Assembly (NCBI RefSeq): GCF_003418935.1
Contig: NZ_QVMT01000019.1
Location: 20,493-67,522, forward strand
Length of the DNA stretch: 47,030 nt
DNA from: Emticicia sp. C21
GTDB lineage: Bacteria; Bacteroidota; Bacteroidia; Cytophagales; Spirosomataceae
Reading direction: 5' to 3'
A model generated the notes under the pieces. It saw only the letters and a program-made list of their open reading frames with translations, was not told the origin of the DNA and did no database searches. Shown one piece after another: positions 37,302-46,437 of this stretch; position 1 is the stretch's first letter, and the number at the start of each line of letters is the position of its first letter. The position numbers and the translations under genes are program-made.

Positions 37302-37823
37302 ATGCACTTATTACACTTCATACTCTCTCTTACACTTCTTATTTTCCCGTTGCATCCTCAAAAAACCGAAAATAAGACAACATTACATGCTTTTCATACC
37401 TCTCTTACCGAAATACAGTATAATCCGAAGGAGAAATCTCTTGAAATAACCATTCGTCTTTTTACTGATGATCTGGAAAATGCACTCACTAAAATCAACA
37501 ATGGACAAAAAGTAATGATTGGTGGCAAAAATGATAATAGTGATGCGGTATTGAGTAAATATATCCAACAACATTTTGCTATTATTACCCCTCAAAAACA
37601 GAAAAAAACGATTAACTATCTGGGCAAAGAGATAGAAGGCGATGCCACCTGGGTATATGTGGAGATACCTGAAAGCCAGATTGTAAAAGATCACATTCTC
37701 TACAATGACCTGATGCAGGAAATGTTTGATGACCAAACCAATCTGGTAAATTTCTTCTATGCAGGTAGTAAAAAGACCTTTCTTTTTAATTCAAAAGTGA
37801 AGAGTACTGCTATTGAGTTTTGA
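37302..37823 (+). CDS. DUF6702-type secreted protein
   Basis: 173 aa. A signal peptide (MHLLHFILSLTLLIFPLHPQ) precedes a small beta domain: LHAFHTSLTEIQYNPKEKSL, then EITIRLFTDDLENALTK and a C-terminal LYNDLMQEMFDDQTNLVNFF. This is the pattern of the Bacteroidota-specific DUF6702 family, often found near membrane-protein genes such as peptidases; its function is not known. ATG start 20 bp after the rseP terminator; a shorter GTG/ATG start is unlikely because the signal peptide begins here. Confidence 0.75.
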   Translation: MHLLHFILSLTLLIFPLHPQKTENKTTLHAFHTSLTEIQYNPKEKSLEITIRLFTDDLENALTKINNGQKVMIGGKNDNSDAVLSKYIQQHFAIITPQKQKKTINYLGKEIEGDATWVYVEIPESQIVKDHILYNDLMQEMFDDQTNLVNFFYAGSKKTFLFNSKVKSTAIEF

Positions 37824-37879
37824 TTTTTCGGGTAGAGTTTAATACCTTTAAGGATTCAACCTTATCTGTATTACTGAAT

Positions 37880-38779
37880 ATGAAAAACACACTTCTGGCC
37901 TTTATTCTAACGGCTTTTTGTATTGCTGCGCAAGCACAAAAAAATGACCCTAAAAAAGAAGAATGGCAACAGCTCTTTAATGGCAAAGACCTGACAGGCT
38001 GGGATATTAAAATAGCCGGACAAGAACTAAACGATAACTACAAAAACACTTTCCGTGTCAAAGATGGCATTCTGCAAATTGCTTATGATGAGTATCAGGA
38101 ATTCGACGGAAAATTCGGCCATCTCTACTATAACCAGCCTTTTTCTTATTATAAACTACGCTTTACTTATCGCTTTGTAGGCAACCAAACCAAAGGTGGG
38201 GCCTCATGGAATGTCAGAAATAGTGGTGTGATGCTTCACTCACAATCTGCTGCCAGTTTATCAAAAGGGCAGGATTTCCCGGTTTCATTAGAATTGCAGA
38301 TGTTGGGTGGTTTGGGTAAAGGCGAACGCCATACGGCTAATCTTTGCACCCCAGGTACACAGGTATATATCAATGGTAAACTCAATACCAATCATTGCAT
38401 TGATTCGTGGTCGAAAACCTATGATGGTAACCAATGGGTAACTATAGAAGCCCTCGTTTTGGGAGATTCATTAATCCAACATTTAATAGATAACAAAGTA
38501 GTTTTTGCTTTTGAAAAGCCACAAGTGGGCGGTGGATTTGTAGGCAAGGATTATGGGTTTAAAGAGGCACATATAGATGATGCCGCTGCACAGGAATGGA
38601 TAAAGAAAGATAGTACACCCTTAGGAGAAGGTTATATAGCTCTTCAAGCCGAAAGCCATCCGATTGAGTTTAAGGATATAGAATTGCTGAACCTGAAAGG
38701 TTGCATGGACCCCAAAGCACTTAATTTTAAATCATACTATATGAAAGCTGATAATACTTTGTGTAAGTATAAGAAGTAA
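37880..38779 (+). CDS. secreted DUF1080 (3-keto-disaccharide hydrolase-like) protein
   Basis: 299 aa from the ATG at 37880 (signal peptide MKNTLLAFILTAFCIAAQAQ); the frame opens upstream but without a signal-like start. The DUF1080 fold is clear: WQQLFNGKDLTGWDIK at the start, LYYNQPFSYYKLRFTYRF, GASWNVRNSGVMLHSQ, QDFPVSLELQML, VTIEALVLGDS and a closing GYIALQAESHPIEFKDIELL. Members act on 3-keto sugars or bind glycans. The tail LKGCMDPKALNFKSYYMKAD resembles a single copy of the GCxDPxAxNYxxxA repeat of extracellular proteins. It lies convergent to susD and may share its carbohydrate substrate. Confidence 0.9.
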   Translation: MKNTLLAFILTAFCIAAQAQKNDPKKEEWQQLFNGKDLTGWDIKIAGQELNDNYKNTFRVKDGILQIAYDEYQEFDGKFGHLYYNQPFSYYKLRFTYRFVGNQTKGGASWNVRNSGVMLHSQSAASLSKGQDFPVSLELQMLGGLGKGERHTANLCTPGTQVYINGKLNTNHCIDSWSKTYDGNQWVTIEALVLGDSLIQHLIDNKVVFAFEKPQVGGGFVGKDYGFKEAHIDDAAAQEWIKKDSTPLGEGYIALQAESHPIEFKDIELLNLKGCMDPKALNFKSYYMKADNTLCKYKK

Positions 38780-39041: not shown

Positions 39042-40811
39042 TTACCACCCAGGATTCTGACCTAACTTAGGATTGGTAATCAGGTCACCTGCTGGAATTG
39101 GGTATAAATAGTTTTTATCTAAGAATTTTCTTGGAATATTGTTCAACCATGTCAATTCTCCTGAATCTCCGTTGGATAATAGTTGAGGATTGGCTTTGCC
39201 AGCCACAACCGGTGCAACCTCTACATAGGTAACGCCTGCTACTCTGTTCGCTGGTAATGTTTTGTAGAAAGCTACATCCAGGATTCCATCTTCGTTCAAA
39301 TCCATCGGTTTATCCAATTCAGGCACATACATACCGTTCCATTCCATTTGCATCAACTCTCCCCTTTTCCATCTTATAATATCATCGAAGCGGAAACCCT
39401 CTAAGCAAAGTTCGATACCTCTTTCACGACGTACTTCTAAAATGGTAGGGTCAGAGATATTCGGGAAGTATTTCTCTTGCAGATATGGGTCTACTACAGT
39501 TGGTTTTGAATTCAGACCGCCTGTAATACCTGCTCTTTTTCTTAAAGCACCGATAGTTGCAGCCCAGTCAGCATCAGTCAATGTACCCAATTCGGCTTTG
39601 GCTTCGGCATATGCCAATAGTACTTCGGCATAGCGGAAAATCGTAATTGAATTGATGTTCAAATCGCGGGTATCGTAATATACATCATCCATCGCCCATT
39701 TGATTGGCATATAACCTGTATAAGTATAAGAGAATACCGGAGGCGCAGGAACCAATGCACCAGTACTGATTCTTTTATAATCACCCGAACGGATGGTTTG
39801 TTGTAATCTTTTATCACGTCCTTTCACCTCATCTTTAAACAACATGGTTTTGTAATCAGGATTATTGGTAAAAGGGGTACCATCAATATTCAGATAAGTA
39901 TTGATGAATGTGCGGATGAAACTGGCTTTATCGCCATAAGTACCACTTGTCCAATACCAGTTAGCGTCGTTCAAGGTATTCAATGCTAAATCACAAACAG
40001 CTGAAAGCATTACCTCAGTAGCGACAGGCGCAGGATTCTGAAACACAGTACGGTACGATTTGTCTGTTCCTGCACCATCGTATAGTTTATATCCTCCTTT
40101 GTCCATTACTTCCTTAGCGGCTGTAGCTGCCTGATTCAATAGATTAGCAGCCGAACCTGTCAAGCCTAAATTAGTATGGTATTTTCTGAAAGTACCTTCA
40201 TGTAAGGCTACTCTTGCCTTAAAAGCATAAGCCACATATTTTGTTACCAGACTTCGGGTACCCTCGCTTGTAGCTGTAATGTTCTGACAAGCATAGTCAA
40301 GGTCGGCCAGTACCGAGTCCATTACCATCACACGTGAATCACGGCCTTTATAAAGCAGTTCAGTATCTGTAACTTCTAATGGTTTGCCAATCCAAGGCAC
40401 ATCGCCAAATCTTTTTACTTTAGCAAAATAAAAATAGGCTCTGAAGAACTTGGCAATACCCAGATAGTTTTTTCTGACTGCCAGAGGCACTTTAGGGTCG
40501 GTACAGTTGGCAATAAAATAATTGATATTACGCAAATCGCCCCAGCTCCAATCGGTGCTTACCTGTGCGCTATAATTGCCTTCAGTAATAAATGGAGGTG
40601 TGTCTTTACGTGCCAGGTAGTCAGACATCGCATCGGCTCTGTGCAGGTTTCTACCATTAAACATTGTGTAAAACGAGTTGGTATAGAGAATCAAACCGCT
40701 TTCGTTTGAAAAAATCGGACCCTTTGAGGTAGTTGCCTGTGGTAATTCTTCCAGGTCACAACTGCTAATCAGAACCGCAAAAAACAGGAAATAAATATAT
40801 TTAAGTTTCAT
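39042..40811 (-). CDS. SusD-family outer membrane nutrient-binding lipoprotein
   Basis: 589 aa from the ATG at 40811 (MKLKYIYFLFFAVLISSC); an upstream in-frame start overlaps susC and lacks a signal. Lipobox ISSC with acidic residues right after the cysteine (CDLEEL), matching the surface-export signal of Bacteroidota lipoproteins. SusD/RagB features: GLILYTNSFYTMFNGRN, LGIAKFFRAYFYFAKVKRFGDVPWI, YAEVLLAYAEAKAELG, LRKRAGI and RRERGIELCLEGFRFDDIIRWKRGE, and the C-terminal KFLDKNYLYPIPAGDLITNPKLGQNPGW pattern (here in two parts). It forms a lid on the SusC channel and binds the substrate, usually an oligosaccharide. Gap to susC 13 bp. Confidence 0.96.
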   Translation of the reverse strand: MKLKYIYFLFFAVLISSCDLEELPQATTSKGPIFSNESGLILYTNSFYTMFNGRNLHRADAMSDYLARKDTPPFITEGNYSAQVSTDWSWGDLRNINYFIANCTDPKVPLAVRKNYLGIAKFFRAYFYFAKVKRFGDVPWIGKPLEVTDTELLYKGRDSRVMVMDSVLADLDYACQNITATSEGTRSLVTKYVAYAFKARVALHEGTFRKYHTNLGLTGSAANLLNQAATAAKEVMDKGGYKLYDGAGTDKSYRTVFQNPAPVATEVMLSAVCDLALNTLNDANWYWTSGTYGDKASFIRTFINTYLNIDGTPFTNNPDYKTMLFKDEVKGRDKRLQQTIRSGDYKRISTGALVPAPPVFSYTYTGYMPIKWAMDDVYYDTRDLNINSITIFRYAEVLLAYAEAKAELGTLTDADWAATIGALRKRAGITGGLNSKPTVVDPYLQEKYFPNISDPTILEVRRERGIELCLEGFRFDDIIRWKRGELMQMEWNGMYVPELDKPMDLNEDGILDVAFYKTLPANRVAGVTYVEVAPVVAGKANPQLLSNGDSGELTWLNNIPRKFLDKNYLYPIPAGDLITNPKLGQNPGW

Positions 40812-40824
40812 AATGTATTCAGAT

Positions 40825-43800
40825 TTAGAATGTAATAGATAAACCAACTGTCACACTTTTCATTAACGGATAATTATAACCATCGCCTGAGTTGCCATTC
40901 GGGTTAAACACCTGATCAGAGGCTACTGCATTTTCTACATCTATATCTCTGGTAATTTTATGTAATGGTGAGAATGTGAAGAGGTTTTCTGCTGAAACAA
41001 ATACTCTTGCGCCAGATGCACCAATTTTCGACATAACTGTTCTTGGCAGATTATACCCTACCTGAATATTTTTCAAACGGGCATAAGCTACATTCTGTAA
41101 GTATTTAGTTTGAGCAGCCACCAGTGTACCGTTGGCATTACTTGCAATCCGCGATACGTATCTTGGGAAGTACGCATCTTGATTATCTTCTTTCCAGATG
41201 TTGCCTATCTGGCTTTTAGGAATACCTCCGTATGGACGGTTGTACTGTCCCCAGAAAAGACTTGCTTCTGAGCTTGGGTACCAGTCTTGTTTGCCTACAC
41301 CTTGCACAAATGCCGAGAAGAAGAAGTTGTTCCAGTCAGCCCCTAACATTACACCATAGGTATATCTTGGGGTTGAATTACCGATGATTGATCTGTCACC
41401 CGGATTCGATACGCGGCTTGTCCCATTATCAATTTTTCCGTCTCCATTTACGTCTTTGAATTTAATATCGCCCGGAAACCACAAGCCACTTGAAGCTGTT
41501 CTGAAAATGGCCTGACTGGCACTGTTTTTCACATCTTCTGCCGATTTGAAGAATCCCTCAGTGGTATATCCCCAGATTTCACCTACGGTCTGGCCTTCGT
41601 AATAATCGCTTAATTGTTTTTCAGGGTTATTGTATTTGGTAACCGTTGCGGTGTAATCGGCCAATGTCAATCGTATATCATAATTGAACGGTTTGGCTCC
41701 TACCGAAAACTTATCCCTATAAGAGAGCATCATTTCCCATCCTGTGGTTTTCAAATCGGCATAGTTACCTTTAGGTGCGGTTGCGCCGAATACTGCCGGA
41801 AGTGTCAGCCCCACCGTAAACATATCAGTAGTGGTTCTAATATAGGCATCTCCCACAAAATTCAGACGGTTACCCAGCATTGAAAAGTCTAAACCGATAT
41901 TTTTGGTCGTAGCCGTTTCCCAAGTCAAGCCTTCAGGTAAAACTGTCGGGTTTCTGGTAATCTGTGGTCTTTGCCCTGCCAGAATAACTGATGATTGCGA
42001 AATACTAAATTGCTCTAAATAAGAATAGGATTTGATATTACCATTTCCTAAAGAACCATAAGAAGCGCGGACCTTCAGGTCAGAGATTATTTGTTCAGGT
42101 ACTTTCCAGAACGATTCTCTTGAAAGTCTCCAGCCTAAGGATACTGACGGGAAGAAAGCATAGCGTTGATTGGCAGGGAATTTAGACGAGCCATCATAAC
42201 GGCCATTCACCTCAACCAGATAGCGGTCTTTGAAAGAGTAGTTCAATCTTGAGAAACCTCCCATAATCTTCCATCTTTCCCAATCGCCCTGTGTAGTAAT
42301 GGCCTGACCTAATGCCAAACTGATATCATTGGCATCTTCAAAGATAAGCCCATTACGTTGCGTTGTCAGCCTTTTATAGGTTGACTGTTCGTAGTTATAA
42401 CCCACCATGAATTTCAGGTAGTGGTTGTCTTTAAATGTATTCTCATATTCAGTATAGAAATTGGTGGTCATGTAGGTTGTTTCTCTATAGACATTGCTCA
42501 GATAATTGGTAGTTGTACCTACATAAGCTATTACCCCCGGTCTGATACTGTATGGAATAGGAACGGCCTTGGTTCTATCGTTGTTGTCGGTATTCTGAAT
42601 TGTGAAGTCTCCCTTGATTCTGAACTTATCCTTGAAGAAGTTAGTGGTAAATCCGGCGGTATTTCTGAACACTTTCTTGTTGTTATCAATACCGTTTTTG
42701 CCATAGTAAAAATCACCCACAGTATAGGCAGCTGAAGCGGTGAGCGTGCCATCAGGATTTAGTAGCGGTGATAATGGGTGGCCTTCGTCTGCGATATTCC
42801 GCCAGATACCACCACCTTCACCTACGTTGAGTGGATTATGGTATTTCATATCAGAATACTGCGACATATTAGTAATTTTCAACCAAGGGTATAGCTGGAT
42901 AGAACCTTTACCTGTGAAGTTGAACACACTATAATCGTCTGAATTGTAGCGGAATAAACCATCCTGCCCGAAGTAACGACCTGTGAGCAAAAAGCTGGCT
43001 TTATCGCTGCTACCCGAAATGCTCAGGTTATGCTCTTTCGAGTTAGTCATGTCTTTATAAAGCAAGTCGTAGTAAGCAGTATTACCAAAATAAACATACT
43101 CGCCTGTGGCGGGGTCAATTTCTACTTCATTGGTGATACCCGCATCTTTTCTACGTTTGATTTCTGTCAGATAGGCCTGTGAGAATTTTAGGGTTTTATT
43201 GGCATTTTGTGGAAAAGTGCCTCCGAAATTCACAAAAGACTCGGCAAACATTGATGCCCATGTATAACCATCGGTCACCAGATCAGGCTTAGCAATAGGT
43301 GATTTGAACGAGTAATTGGTTGAATAAGTAACGCTTGTTTTGCCTGCTGATGGATTTTTGGTAGTAATCAATACCACTCCGAATACCCCTCTCGCACCAT
43401 AGATAGAAGCAGAAGCGGCATCTTTTAACAAAGTAATGCTGGCAATATCACTTGGATTTAGCAAGCTTGGATCACCCTCTACGTTATCAATGAGTACAAG
43501 TGCATTACCCCCCTGCCCGATTGAGGTAGTACCTCTGATATTGAAAGCAGGCGCCTGATTAGGCTTTCCATCACCCATTCTTACGTTCAGATTAGGCATT
43601 ACCCCTTGCAAACCCTGATTAACGTTCGTTACAGGGCGGTTTTCAAATACTTCGCCTGTTACCTGATCAACAGCACCGGTCAGGTTGGCTTTCTTTTGTG
43701 AGCCATATCCTACCACTATTACTTCAGATAAAACCTTTGTATCGGTTTTAAGTACCACATTCAAAGTGGTCTGGTTTCCCACTTCTATTTCCTGTGGGCT

Positions 43801-44406
43801 ATAACCCACAAAAGAAAAAACCAGTACAGAACTGCTATTAGGTACATCAATTTTAAATTTTCCATCGCCGTCGGTACTTGTTCCTTTGCTGGTTCCTTTC
43901 AAGGTAACACTTACACCCGGTATACCACTGCCTGCATCGTCTTTTACTGTTCCGGTTATGGTCTGGTCAATGGGCATCAGGGCTACTTTTTCATCGTCTG
44001 CCGTTGCCGGATTGGTTTCGAGCCGAAACGAGCTTTTATCGGTGGTGGCTGGGCTCAGAATAATCTGCCCGCCTATGATTTTATAAGAGATTTGCTGTGG
44101 TTTTAAAAGCACATCTAAAACCTCCGACAGTTTCTTATCATTGATATTTACCGAAACTTTGCGATCAACCTGTATGGCTTTAGAATTATACACAAACTTG
44201 GCTTCGGTCTGCTGCTCAATCTGGCTGAGTATCGTCCGAAGTTTCTTGTCTTCGACCTTTAAAGATACCGACTTATTGAGCATCTCCTGAGCCTTCGTAT
44301 CAAAGGCAAAAGCCCCTCCCATAAAGAGGATTGCTATCGTAAGCTGTAAAAGAGAGATTTTCATAATAGCCAGTAGGGTTTGACTAAATAGTTGAGGTTT
44401 TTTCAT
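40825..44406 (-). CDS. SusC/RagA-family TonB-linked outer membrane transporter with STN domain
   Basis: 1193 aa from the ATG at 44406 (MKKPQLFSQTLLAIMKIS). Order: signal peptide (to about AFAFDTKA), secretin/TonB N-terminal STN domain (about 45-125, VSLKVEDKKLRTILSQIEQQ, then VSVNINDKKLSEVLDVLL), carboxypeptidase-like regulatory domain (ITGTVKDDAGSGIPGVSVTL), TonB box region and plug (VIVVGYGSQKKANLTGAVDQ), then a 22-stranded barrel. The STN domain indicates signalling to a FecR anti-sigma factor, which is encoded next door. It imports a substrate captured by the SusD-like partner. No glycoside hydrolase is encoded beside it. Its 5' region carries an antisense RNA. Confidence 0.96.
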   Translation of the reverse strand: MKKPQLFSQTLLAIMKISLLQLTIAILFMGGAFAFDTKAQEMLNKSVSLKVEDKKLRTILSQIEQQTEAKFVYNSKAIQVDRKVSVNINDKKLSEVLDVLLKPQQISYKIIGGQIILSPATTDKSSFRLETNPATADDEKVALMPIDQTITGTVKDDAGSGIPGVSVTLKGTSKGTSTDGDGKFKIDVPNSSSVLVFSFVGYSPQEIEVGNQTTLNVVLKTDTKVLSEVIVVGYGSQKKANLTGAVDQVTGEVFENRPVTNVNQGLQGVMPNLNVRMGDGKPNQAPAFNIRGTTSIGQGGNALVLIDNVEGDPSLLNPSDIASITLLKDAASASIYGARGVFGVVLITTKNPSAGKTSVTYSTNYSFKSPIAKPDLVTDGYTWASMFAESFVNFGGTFPQNANKTLKFSQAYLTEIKRRKDAGITNEVEIDPATGEYVYFGNTAYYDLLYKDMTNSKEHNLSISGSSDKASFLLTGRYFGQDGLFRYNSDDYSVFNFTGKGSIQLYPWLKITNMSQYSDMKYHNPLNVGEGGGIWRNIADEGHPLSPLLNPDGTLTASAAYTVGDFYYGKNGIDNNKKVFRNTAGFTTNFFKDKFRIKGDFTIQNTDNNDRTKAVPIPYSIRPGVIAYVGTTTNYLSNVYRETTYMTTNFYTEYENTFKDNHYLKFMVGYNYEQSTYKRLTTQRNGLIFEDANDISLALGQAITTQGDWERWKIMGGFSRLNYSFKDRYLVEVNGRYDGSSKFPANQRYAFFPSVSLGWRLSRESFWKVPEQIISDLKVRASYGSLGNGNIKSYSYLEQFSISQSSVILAGQRPQITRNPTVLPEGLTWETATTKNIGLDFSMLGNRLNFVGDAYIRTTTDMFTVGLTLPAVFGATAPKGNYADLKTTGWEMMLSYRDKFSVGAKPFNYDIRLTLADYTATVTKYNNPEKQLSDYYEGQTVGEIWGYTTEGFFKSAEDVKNSASQAIFRTASSGLWFPGDIKFKDVNGDGKIDNGTSRVSNPGDRSIIGNSTPRYTYGVMLGADWNNFFFSAFVQGVGKQDWYPSSEASLFWGQYNRPYGGIPKSQIGNIWKEDNQDAYFPRYVSRIASNANGTLVAAQTKYLQNVAYARLKNIQVGYNLPRTVMSKIGASGARVFVSAENLFTFSPLHKITRDIDVENAVASDQVFNPNGNSGDGYNYPLMKSVTVGLSITF

Positions 44407-44413
44407 ACTTTTG
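44379..44413 (+). promoter_or_regulatory. plus-strand promoter for the antisense RNA
   Basis: TTTG (44379-44382), a 23-bp spacer, then TACTTTTG (44406-44413), fitting TTTG/TAnnTTTG. It overlaps the susC start region on the opposite strand and points away from susC into its leader. Spacing is at the upper limit described for Bacteroidota. Confidence 0.5.
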
Positions 44414-44418
44414 ATTGT

Positions 44419-44536
44419 TTTGTTAAGTTTTCGAACGATTTGGCAAAACACTCCTTCTACTAGAATTGGCTCGCAACCAATTCAGAAGGGATTCCATAAA
44501 AGCCGGCAATGCTCGCAACATTGCTGGTTTTTTGTT
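44419..44536 (+). ncRNA. predicted antisense small RNA of the susC leader
   Basis: Between a plus-strand promoter and a plus-strand terminator lie about 118 nt without coding capacity. Hairpin 1 is CCTTCT (44453-44458), a 4-nt bulge, GAATTGG (44463-44469), loop CTCGCAA, CCAATTC (44477-44483), AGAAGG (44484-44489): 13 bp in all. Hairpin 2 is the terminator with stem CCGGCAATG (44503-44511), loop CTCGCAA and CATTGCTGG (44519-44527), then TTTTTTGTTTTT. The two loops are identical although the stems differ. The loop contains CUCG, a YUNR U-turn as in loops of known antisense RNAs. The RNA is complementary to the whole susC leader. Cis-antisense RNAs near susC are known in Bacteroides (DonS type). 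End points are approximate. Confidence 0.5.
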
Positions 44537-44539
44537 TTT
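44503..44539 (+). terminator. plus-strand intrinsic terminator upstream of susC
   Basis: CCGGCAATG / CATTGCTGG, 9 bp with one G-U pair that exists only in the plus-strand RNA, loop CTCGCAA, then TTTTTT-G-TTTTT (44528-44539). No plus-strand gene ends nearby, so it needs a non-coding or antisense transcript to explain it. Confidence 0.7.
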
Positions 44540-44544
44540 CAAGG

Positions 44545-44552
44545 CAAAATTA
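44545..44552 (-). promoter_or_regulatory. possible susC promoter -7 box (TAATTTTG)
   Basis: On the minus strand TAATTTTG fits TAnnTTTG and would start an mRNA near 44539 with a leader of about 133 nt. No -33 TTTG was seen. If the ECF sigma factor drives susC, another motif may be used. Confidence 0.35.
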
Positions 44553-44673
44553 GGACTTGCAGAAAAGATCAGGTCATCATATTGGTTTATGTTTTGGTTA
44601 AGGTTTTATAGATAATAGGTAACTAAATTAATCTTTGTTGTTTCTGTAGAAACGAACTGCACCAGATAAAATC

Positions 44674-45714
44674 TCATTGACACCCCTTCCCACTCAACAG
44701 AATCGTGGTGCCTTTTACTTCATAGCTCGCACCTATGGCGGCACAGATAATGTCTAATTTGGTATAGAGAGTCTGGTGTGTAATATCGGCAGTAAGGAGA
44801 CAGTTATTAATGGCTTCGTTTTCAACTAAAATATCTACACCATAGGCTTCACGAAGTTTGCTCAATACAGCCAGCACAGGCGTATCGTCGAACTCAAAAA
44901 AGACCCTGGTGTCTTGTATTTTAGGCGTCTGAATAATAGGATTCTTAACGATATTGGTAACAAAGAGGTTACTTTCGGCAAAAAAAGTAACCTTGTGATT
45001 TGGGGTTAGTACCACCCCATTGGTTTGATTATCTTTGTTGATATTGTGGTTTTCTTCTTCATAAACCGATACTCTGCCGGATACCACCTCTACTTCTATT
45101 TTCTTTACCCCATCAATGTTTTTCACATAGAAACTCGTACCTAATACTTTGGTAGTAACATTGCCGGTATAGACAAAAAATGGCTTTGTGGGATTTTTCT
45201 GTACCTCAAAAAAGCCCTCACCTTTTAAATAAACCTCCCGGTTAGCCTCACTAAACTTCTCCGGATAATGCAATTTGCTATGGGGTTGGAGTGTGACAGC
45301 GCTTCCATCTTCCAGGACAATTTTCATAGCCTGATTCGAGTTATTGGTTTTCTCAATCAACCCTTTCAGCCCGGCAGACTGATTAATAGATACAGACTCA
45401 TCTGTTCTGTTTTTCAGATAAAAAGCTAAGGTTATTCCGAAAATCAATAGAATAGAGGCGGCTATTTTTGTAAGAATACTGGTATTTTGGAAAATGCTGA
45501 ATGTTCTTTGCACTTGTGCTTCCGGCATCAGGTCACCTTTGGTATGTTTTCTTATTTTTTGCCATAATTGCTCTTCCAACTCCGCAGCATTCCACTCGAC
45601 ATCAGGCATATCGTCTAATAACTCATACCATTGCTCTACTACCTTTTGTTCGGCAGTAGTACATTGTCCGTGCAGGTATTTATTCAATAGTAGTGCAAAA
45701 GATTGGCGGTTCAT
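44674..45714 (-). CDS. FecR-family anti-sigma factor / sensor
   Basis: 346 aa from the ATG at 45714 (MNRQSFALLLNKYLHGQCTT); the longer in-frame start adds residues with no family match. The N-terminal cytoplasmic part binds the sigma factor; one membrane segment (about 97-115, ILTKIAASILLIFGITLAFYL) follows; the periplasmic part has the FecR domain (VLEDGSAVTLQPHSKLHYPE, REVYLKGEGFFEVQKNPTKP, VLGTSFYVKN, VEVVSGRVSVYE) and a C-terminal STN-like tail (DTPVLAVLSKLREAYGVDIL). It should receive the signal from the STN domain of the SusC protein and release the sigma factor. It lies 129 bp after the sigma gene. Confidence 0.94.
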   Translation of the reverse strand: MNRQSFALLLNKYLHGQCTTAEQKVVEQWYELLDDMPDVEWNAAELEEQLWQKIRKHTKGDLMPEAQVQRTFSIFQNTSILTKIAASILLIFGITLAFYLKNRTDESVSINQSAGLKGLIEKTNNSNQAMKIVLEDGSAVTLQPHSKLHYPEKFSEANREVYLKGEGFFEVQKNPTKPFFVYTGNVTTKVLGTSFYVKNIDGVKKIEVEVVSGRVSVYEEENHNINKDNQTNGVVLTPNHKVTFFAESNLFVTNIVKNPIIQTPKIQDTRVFFEFDDTPVLAVLSKLREAYGVDILVENEAINNCLLTADITHQTLYTKLDIICAAIGASYEVKGTTILLSGKGCQ

Positions 45715-45843
45715 GATTAACAGGTGGTTTTGTGTATAAGTCAAACAAGAAGCCTGTAACCGCAAATAATTTTAATATTTCTTTGAAAGTTTATATAAAA
45801 ATGGTGATTTTTATAAATTTTCTTTAAATAGTTCAATTAAATT

Positions 45844-46437
45844 TTACTCATAAAAATAATGTAGAAAACGAAGATAAGCCAAAAATGAAAGAGTCATAAA
45901 TTCTTTAAGATATACCCGCAAAATCCTCATGCCTTGCGTAATATGGTACTCGACCGTTCGTTCCGGAATAGAGAGTAGTTCTGAAATCTCTTTGACCGAT
46001 TTGTATTCCAGACGGTTCAGCGTAAATATCTGGCGGGTCTTTTCGGGTAGTTTTTCAATGCTTTTTTCTATGGCTACAGATAGTTCATTAAAGGCAATTG
46101 ATTCATCGACAGTTTCTGAAAGTTCGCTTTTATTAGCGGCGTATTCCATAAATTTATCCTGCAATATCTGCCGCCTGATATGATTGATAATAAGATATTT
46201 AAGTGAGGCATTCAGGTATGCTTCCAGATTATCAATGGCTATCTTATCTCGCTTTTCCCATAAGCTGATAAATAAATCCTGTAAGAGTTCTTCGGCTATC
46301 TGTTTTGAATGAATTTTGAACTGGGTAGTTCGGAGCAGTTTACTAAAATATCGCCTATAAATTTCCTCAAACGCACCCTCGTCTCCCACCAAAAGGAGCT
46401 TCACAAGAAGTTCATCGCTGAGTAATTTATATTCCAT
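45844..46437 (-). CDS. ECF (FecI-like) sigma factor
   Basis: 197 aa. Region 2 is ALFEEIYRRYFSKLLRTTQF-like (GAFEEIYRRYFSKLLRTT) to DLFISLWEKRDKI and YLNASLKYLIINHIRRQ; region 4 is LPEKTRQIFTLNRLEYKSVK followed by EISELLSIPERTVEYHITQG. It resembles the Bacteroidota-specific RNA polymerase sigma-70 subfamily paired with FecR and SusC. It should drive susCD after release from FecR. An A/T-only 9-bp hairpin (45794-45815) lies between this gene and fecR and might reduce read-through. Confidence 0.94.
   Translation of the reverse strand: MEYKLLSDELLVKLLLVGDEGAFEEIYRRYFSKLLRTTQFKIHSKQIAEELLQDLFISLWEKRDKIAIDNLEAYLNASLKYLIINHIRRQILQDKFMEYAANKSELSETVDESIAFNELSVAIEKSIEKLPEKTRQIFTLNRLEYKSVKEISELLSIPERTVEYHITQGMRILRVYLKEFMTLSFLAYLRFLHYFYE

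Follow-up and report, generated by a model that had tools for sequence, protein, structure and literature searches.

A predicted DonS-like antisense RNA opposite a susC leader of Emticicia shows one loop sequence on two unlike hairpins, a twin-loop design that recurs beyond chance in related loci

DonS, whose founding description is reportedly that of Cao et al. in 2016, lies in an ECF sigma/anti-sigma factor neighbourhood, and plasmid copy-control RNAs are U-turn kissing antisense RNAs. To our knowledge, there is no rule among U-turn kissing antisense RNAs that two loops of one RNA match. DonS is a member of a family of antisense RNAs of 78-128 nt that lower susC expression, and B. thetaiotaomicron has ten more RNAs with DonS-like orientation, of which Northern blots confirmed five (PMC7366714). 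Such RNAs and their susC genes show correlation as well as anticorrelation, according to a figure legend (PMC10994844). Antisense RNAs have been described in a flavobacterium, in a report that cites 15 such loci for B. fragilis (PMC9723704). The FopS sRNAs, comprising 14 paralogs with a common 5' seed and several targets, also repress Bacteroides susC mRNAs (PMC11697453). Loop-loop contacts with U-turn loops, a terminator loop included, are described for SR4/bsrG and SR5/bsrE (PMC7430163).

The locus analysed here resembles that of DonS in gene content and orientation. It lies in a 47,030-nt stretch of the genome of Emticicia sp. C21 (the window; contig NZ_QVMT01000019.1, positions 20,493 to 67,522) and carries on the minus strand a FecI-like ECF sigma factor gene (45844-46437; Pfam Sigma70_r2 and Sigma70_r4_2), a FecR-like anti-sigma factor gene (44674-45765; FecR and FecR_C), the target gene encoding an STN-domain SusC-like TonB-dependent receptor (40825-44406; STN, CarbopepD_reg_2, Plug and barrel) and a SusD-like lipoprotein gene (39042-40847; SusD_RagB). 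The susC start codon is the ATG at 44404-44406, and the encoded protein is 93% identical to SusC of Emticicia sp. BO119 (locus L003). A 3-keto-disaccharide hydrolase-like gene identified by Pfam at 37820-38779 is convergent with the susD gene. Opposite the susC leader of this FecI/FecR locus, the plus strand very probably encodes a DonS-like antisense RNA, as judged from its sequence and that of related leaders. Like DonS-type RNAs, the predicted RNA has its own terminator and a Bacteroidota-type -7 box, is associated with an ECF/anti-sigma locus and, measured between its predicted start and its terminator, has a length of about 118-120 nt, within the 78-128 nt range. Unlike DonS, it and its relatives, in the window's family and in other families of the class, are known from sequence alone, and it possesses twin identical loops, which are absent from the available part of the DonS description (PMC7366714). 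By analogy with SR4/bsrG and SR5/bsrE, it would be a small structured antisense RNA that starts pairing at complementary loops, its target being, unlike theirs, a chromosomal nutrient-uptake gene. In contrast to FopS and GibS, a single cis-antisense RNA is predicted here, with a loop that differs between loci. The antisense RNA is of a known, DonS-like kind; no description of the recurrent twin-loop design was found in the literature searched: the accessible portions of work on identical loops, U-turn loops and susC antisense RNAs contain no twin loops, as the initial annotation had surmised in calling the design possibly new, and work beyond that searched may exist.

The predicted RNA contains three hairpins, two of which display the same seven-nucleotide loop. 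It extends from about 44420 to about 44537 on the plus strand and covers about -14 to -131 relative to the susC ATG, so that its earlier description as complementary to the whole susC leader was inexact. The 5' hairpin (44416-44450; GTTTTG...CAAAAC), not named in the initial annotation, is located at the predicted RNA start (about 44420) and contains a U-G pair on the antisense strand where the sense strand would have C-A. The middle hairpin, M (44452-44490), is composed of a closing stem (44452-44458/44484-44490) and an inner stem (44463-44469/44477-44483) that presents the loop CTCGCAA at 44470-44476. The terminator hairpin, T (44499-44538), presents the same loop at 44512-44518 on a stem (44499-44511/44519-44531) dissimilar to those of M and ends in a T-rich tail. 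As previously noted, the T stem is fully paired in plus-strand RNA only, with G-U there and A-C on the sense strand. The 7-mer CTCGCAA itself is not rare, occurring four times in the window against 3.35 expected; its position in two hairpin loops is the unusual part. Folding of 44420-44540 yields a minimum free energy of -37.6 for the plus strand (z -4.34; 1 of 200 shuffles equally good) and -29.4 for the minus strand (z -1.81; 13 of 200 shuffles equally good). Rfam 15 gave no above-threshold match in the window or in ten related loci, and four matches under the gathering threshold, the best with E 0.15, within 44300-44680. The covariance model R1, built from T and its relatives, scores T at 42.7 bits. 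Over 28 loci whose hairpins were chosen for pairing, T covariation comprises 66 cells with 10 of 10 pairs changed on both sides (0 of 500 shuffles). These 28 of 42 segments, also used for R1, exclude all 12 segments with six-nucleotide loops and the seven-nucleotide L285 and L289. Read as a sense-strand terminator, the T hairpin scores weakly with R1 (minus strand 44492-44531, 26.7 bits) and may serve both directions at the window.

The proposed antisense promoter overlaps the susC start codon. It consists of TTTG at 44379-44382, a spacer of 23 nt and the -7 box TACTTTTG at 44406-44413 on the plus strand (44379-44413 overall). The Bacteroidota -7 consensus is TAnnTTTG, and the Bacteroides promoter consensus has a spacer shorter than the 23 nt found here, making the -33 spacing at the window non-canonical. 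Of 127 leaders with an antisense hairpin, 95 have the motif CATAnnTTT, in which the -7 box is fused to the start codon, close to the susC start (2.4 in shuffles); of 44 leaders lacking such a hairpin, 13 have it (1.3 in shuffles). This conservation count covers the -7 box alone, the -33 element (TTTG at N23) being proposed.

Sequence comparison among relatives favours the plus strand as the selected strand. When a transition alters one arm of a stem, one strand is left with a G-U pair and its complement with an A-C mismatch, and wobble pairs therefore reveal which strand is read. The comparison comprised 107 STN-susC leaders of the window's family, taken from the best-scoring matches listed and including the contig-end loci L075 and L076, of which 93 remained after removal of near-copies. 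A strand-blind finder without preference for the side of the T-tail located a main inverted repeat in 71 of the 93. In these stems, G-U wobbles occur 104 times on the antisense strand and 22 times on the sense strand, with 51 loci favouring antisense, 3 favouring sense and 17 ties. Of these 71 repeats, 67 have the T-rich tail on the antisense side and one has it on the sense side; tail counts from the finder of the second-set, pooled and similar-leader tests described below are biased because that finder prefers an antisense T-tail. Terminators were found on the antisense strand of 69 and the sense strand of 3 of the 107 leaders (0 of 107 shuffled leaders), at 49 and 0 of 78 leaders of a second set, likewise best-scoring matches listed, and at 30 and 2 of 69 leaders from other families of the class among the matches listed, where some loci encode TonB receptors shorter than SusC. 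The antisense RNA is more stable than its complement in 119 of 127 leaders and, with T removed, in 116 of 127. The wobble asymmetry and the recurrence of the -7 box lend comparative support to the annotated plus-strand RNA of about 118 nt, and leader position, length and ECF/anti-sigma locus to its suggested likeness to DonS.

Further copies of the predicted RNA are present in the same genome. A search with R1 returned 13 matches at E up to 10, the best four of which are antisense and located before STN-susC genes, the window included; among the STN matches of SusC length listed for the genome, five in number, one (C32:204247) had no R1 match. Antisense terminators at the further STN-susC genes L030, L031 and L040, identified by eye and with R1, carry the loops TTTCAA, CTGGTAC and CCGGAAT. 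The fifth match (G000:C5:79043-79081; L002, L329) is an orphan antisense copy with a -7 box, a 5' hairpin and a terminator loop TTGCAG that precedes an esterase-like gene, as judged by eye. What would be the susC start codon here meets a stop after seven codons, and the usual target of this antisense RNA thus seems to be gone.

Exact twin loops recur beyond chance in the window's family. Across 81 loci of this family, 10 of the 54 with seven-nucleotide loops contain a further copy of the T loop within the same RNA (permutation mean 0.95; 0 of 2000 permutations reach 10), as do 7 of the 27 with six-nucleotide loops (permutation mean 2.39; P 0.001). Fifteen of these 17 exact copies form precisely the loop of a hairpin and are flanked by 3 pairs or more, against a background of 6.9%. 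A later test on a second set, for which the hairpin finder had been modified slightly, showed twin loops in 7 of 56 loci (permutation mean 0.58, maximum 4 of 2000); the 78 leaders of this set represent other loci of five genomes already used in the first set, that is, new loci but not new genomes, with eight already collected loci dropped. Pooling, which includes this second set, gave 185 leaders, 171 after de-duplication and 127 with a hairpin. The T loop is identical to the loop of a second hairpin in 20 of the 127 (permutation mean 1.82, maximum 7 of 3000), and these 20 loci carry 14 distinct loop sequences. When only mutually dissimilar leaders were considered, twins remained in 14 of 101 (mean 1.11, maximum 6) and in 9 of 61 (mean 0.66, maximum 4 of 3000). 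The initial annotation had seen two hairpins both showing CTCGCAA and suggested selection on the loop; folding confirms the pair, which was if anything understated, and the repetition of the design in many dissimilar leaders supports the suggestion. One of 127 leaders has an inverted copy in a hairpin loop, against 0.60 by permutation. Thirteen of the 20 twins are identical up to the loop edge and no further on either side; in 6 the identity extends by one base on each side, and in one by one and two bases.

The equality of the loops is neither universal nor strict. No exact twin in a hairpin loop is present in 107 of 127 leaders, and two loci carry near-twins whose loops differ at one base (L162, with CTGCAAA in T but GTGCAAA in M; L126, with CTGCAAT in T but CTGGAAT in M), which indicates that loop equality is not strict. 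A search for one-mismatch twins requiring stems of at least 4 found 0 against 3.8 by permutation, a filter that misses both L162 and L126, and allowing one mismatch in six-nucleotide loops gave 14 of 27, not clearly above the 11.8 of the comparison. Among the 107 loci without a twin, the longest common stretch is 4 in 25 loci (17.3 by permutation), 5 in 3 (3.22), 6 in 3 (0.86) and 7 in 1 (0.1). In other families, twins occur in 3 of 28 loci, one with CGTCAA and two with CGCCAA, all in genome G228 (permutation mean 0.55, maximum 3 of 3000); they are only suggestive, since permutation can reach a count of 3. Locus L275 shows its T loop TTACCAG three times in one antisense RNA, T itself counted.

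Loop sequences are kept together in close orthologs and vary widely between loci. Among Emticicia orthologs, L003 and L026 have CTCGCAA in both loops while L017 and L027 have CTCGTAA in both; the orthologs carry either form twice, so that the one change appears in both loops. In the M stem, two-sided pair changes are visible by eye at the third pair from the loop in L026 and at the second pair in L027, and some outer pairs are broken in both. Runella orthologs (L004, L005, L006, L010, L020, L021 and L023) have unequal loops in 7 of 7 cases, as assessed by eye. Conservation of the loops at orthologous loci, named in the initial annotation as a check, thus holds within Emticicia, where both loops are kept or changed together, and fails in Runella, where none of seven has equal loops. 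Between similar leaders, the T loop can also be inverted, as in the Runella loci L004 and L005 (TTGCGAC) versus L006 (GTCGCAA) and in L073 (CTCGTAA) versus L082, L084 and L095 (TTACGAG). Among 57 pairs of similar leaders, the loop is the same in 27, substituted in 25, changed in length in 1 and inverted in 4. Three of the inverted pairs include L073, and the fourth (L119/L123) involves a hairpin other than the terminator, the finder having picked in both loci a different hairpin from the one previously called. T-loop inversions consequently represent few events, in loci without twins, and both orthology and inversion were judged by leader similarity and by eye, not by trees. Inverted loops between similar leaders point to a small natural inversion process at these palindromes.

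The T-loop letters vary by locus, with 64 distinct sequences among 65 loci of five genomes, counted within each, and a FopS-like common recognition sequence among the copies of one genome was not found. Identical T-loop pairs make up 1 of 392 pairs within genomes and 14 of 1688 between genomes, raw small counts that lie in the expected direction. Among 54 T loops of seven nucleotides, 51 have U at position 2 and 51 have A at position 6, which gives a U at position 2 whichever strand forms the loop. U-turn loops carry U at this position, and YUNR defines the U-turn recognition loop. Both window loops contain CUCG, which conforms to YUNR. YUNR-type loops on either strand are present in 78 of 126 loci, a modest excess over 62 for column shuffles (maximum 74 of 500).

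In the mechanism we favour, the plus strand would produce a DonS-like cis-antisense RNA of about 120 nt with three hairpins, its transcription beginning at the promoter with the -7 box over the susC start codon and stopping at the RNA's own terminator. By extension from DonS, the RNA would pair with the susC leader and lower SusC expression. First contact would be made by kissing between the six- or seven-base antisense loops and complementary loops folded in the leader, and the twin loops, present here and in about one in six relatives examined, would offer two interchangeable contact points for one partner sequence, an arrangement that should make recognition faster or more stable. The match between the two loops is probably purposeful and serves to recognise susC's own message. 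The likeliest partner is the complementary loop within the same leader, because an inversion leaves sense-antisense pairing intact, whereas a protein or a third RNA would lose its site. The advantage of equal loops is not obvious, since two different loops would give more specificity. As a whole, the explanation of a DonS-like kissing cis-antisense RNA with equal loops as two contact points seems to us rather likely to be correct.

Several other explanations for the equal loops were considered. In a cross-register arrangement, the strong antisense T would kiss the M' loop of the mRNA, and M would have to copy the loop of T because A-C mismatches weaken T' in the mRNA. The energies fit, since over the 20 twin loci the mean for T is -18.1 kcal/mol on the antisense strand versus -12.1 on the sense strand and that for M -5.9 versus -4.6, as does the restriction of identity mostly to the loop; T', however, still folds on the sense strand, where it is stronger than M', and most loci do without a twin, so that we consider such docking possible but doubtful. 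The equal loops could also be a by-product of copying between DNA hairpins instead of selection. The loop inversions demonstrate that these palindromes rearrange, and the 20 exact twins outnumber one-mismatch hairpin pairs (0 with the filter, two by eye), but the copies are direct and hardly ever inverted (20 versus 1), and little homology would be available to guide copying because the stems differ and identity halts at the loop edge in 13 of 20. We regard copying as unlikely.

Binding of both loops to a second RNA or an RNA-binding protein, raised in the initial annotation, would suit two identical loops as two sites for one partner, and the Bacteroides FopS sRNAs do act on several susC mRNAs (PMC11697453). 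This is nevertheless quite unlikely given that loop letters vary by locus, that loops are inverted between similar leaders and that TTGCGAG, for which a genome scan had been proposed, is not enriched (159+166 occurrences against 237+251 for the reversed control). A function of the sense strand, as attenuator or riboswitch of the susC leader, would agree with the hairpins also formed by that strand and with the weak minus-strand match of T'. It appears very unlikely in view of the scarcity of sense terminators in the two sets (3 of 107 and 0 of 78) and of the G-U asymmetry and folding energies, which favour the antisense strand. Finally, the repeated 7-mer might be a direct-repeat DNA site for a regulator or an ECF sigma factor. 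While the window copies are indeed direct repeats 42 bp apart, the spacing varies from 35 to 65 bp over the 17 exact copies, of which 15 sit in stem-flanked loops, and we find this reading highly improbable.

Kissing between the twin antisense loops and the leader of the same susC gene, the reading we prefer, bears on bacteria that possess many near-copies of one uptake system, with up to 64 STN-type matches per genome, many with their own predicted cis-antisense RNA. At stake is how such antisense RNAs find only their own mRNA. A broader and more tentative possibility is that each uptake locus has an antisense RNA whose six- or seven-letter loop serves as a private address, often shown twice on unrelated stems, and that this two-point kissing lock keeps dozens of parallel susC systems from cross-silencing, as a general recognition code of Bacteroidota nutrient regulation. 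If the proposed mechanism is true, the loop would be an address, often doubled, a rule testable by a seven-base swap, and these loci would provide ready-made orthogonal RNA switches. Twin loops on unlike stems would also constitute a natural signature by which sequence analysis on its own may spot functional antisense RNAs.
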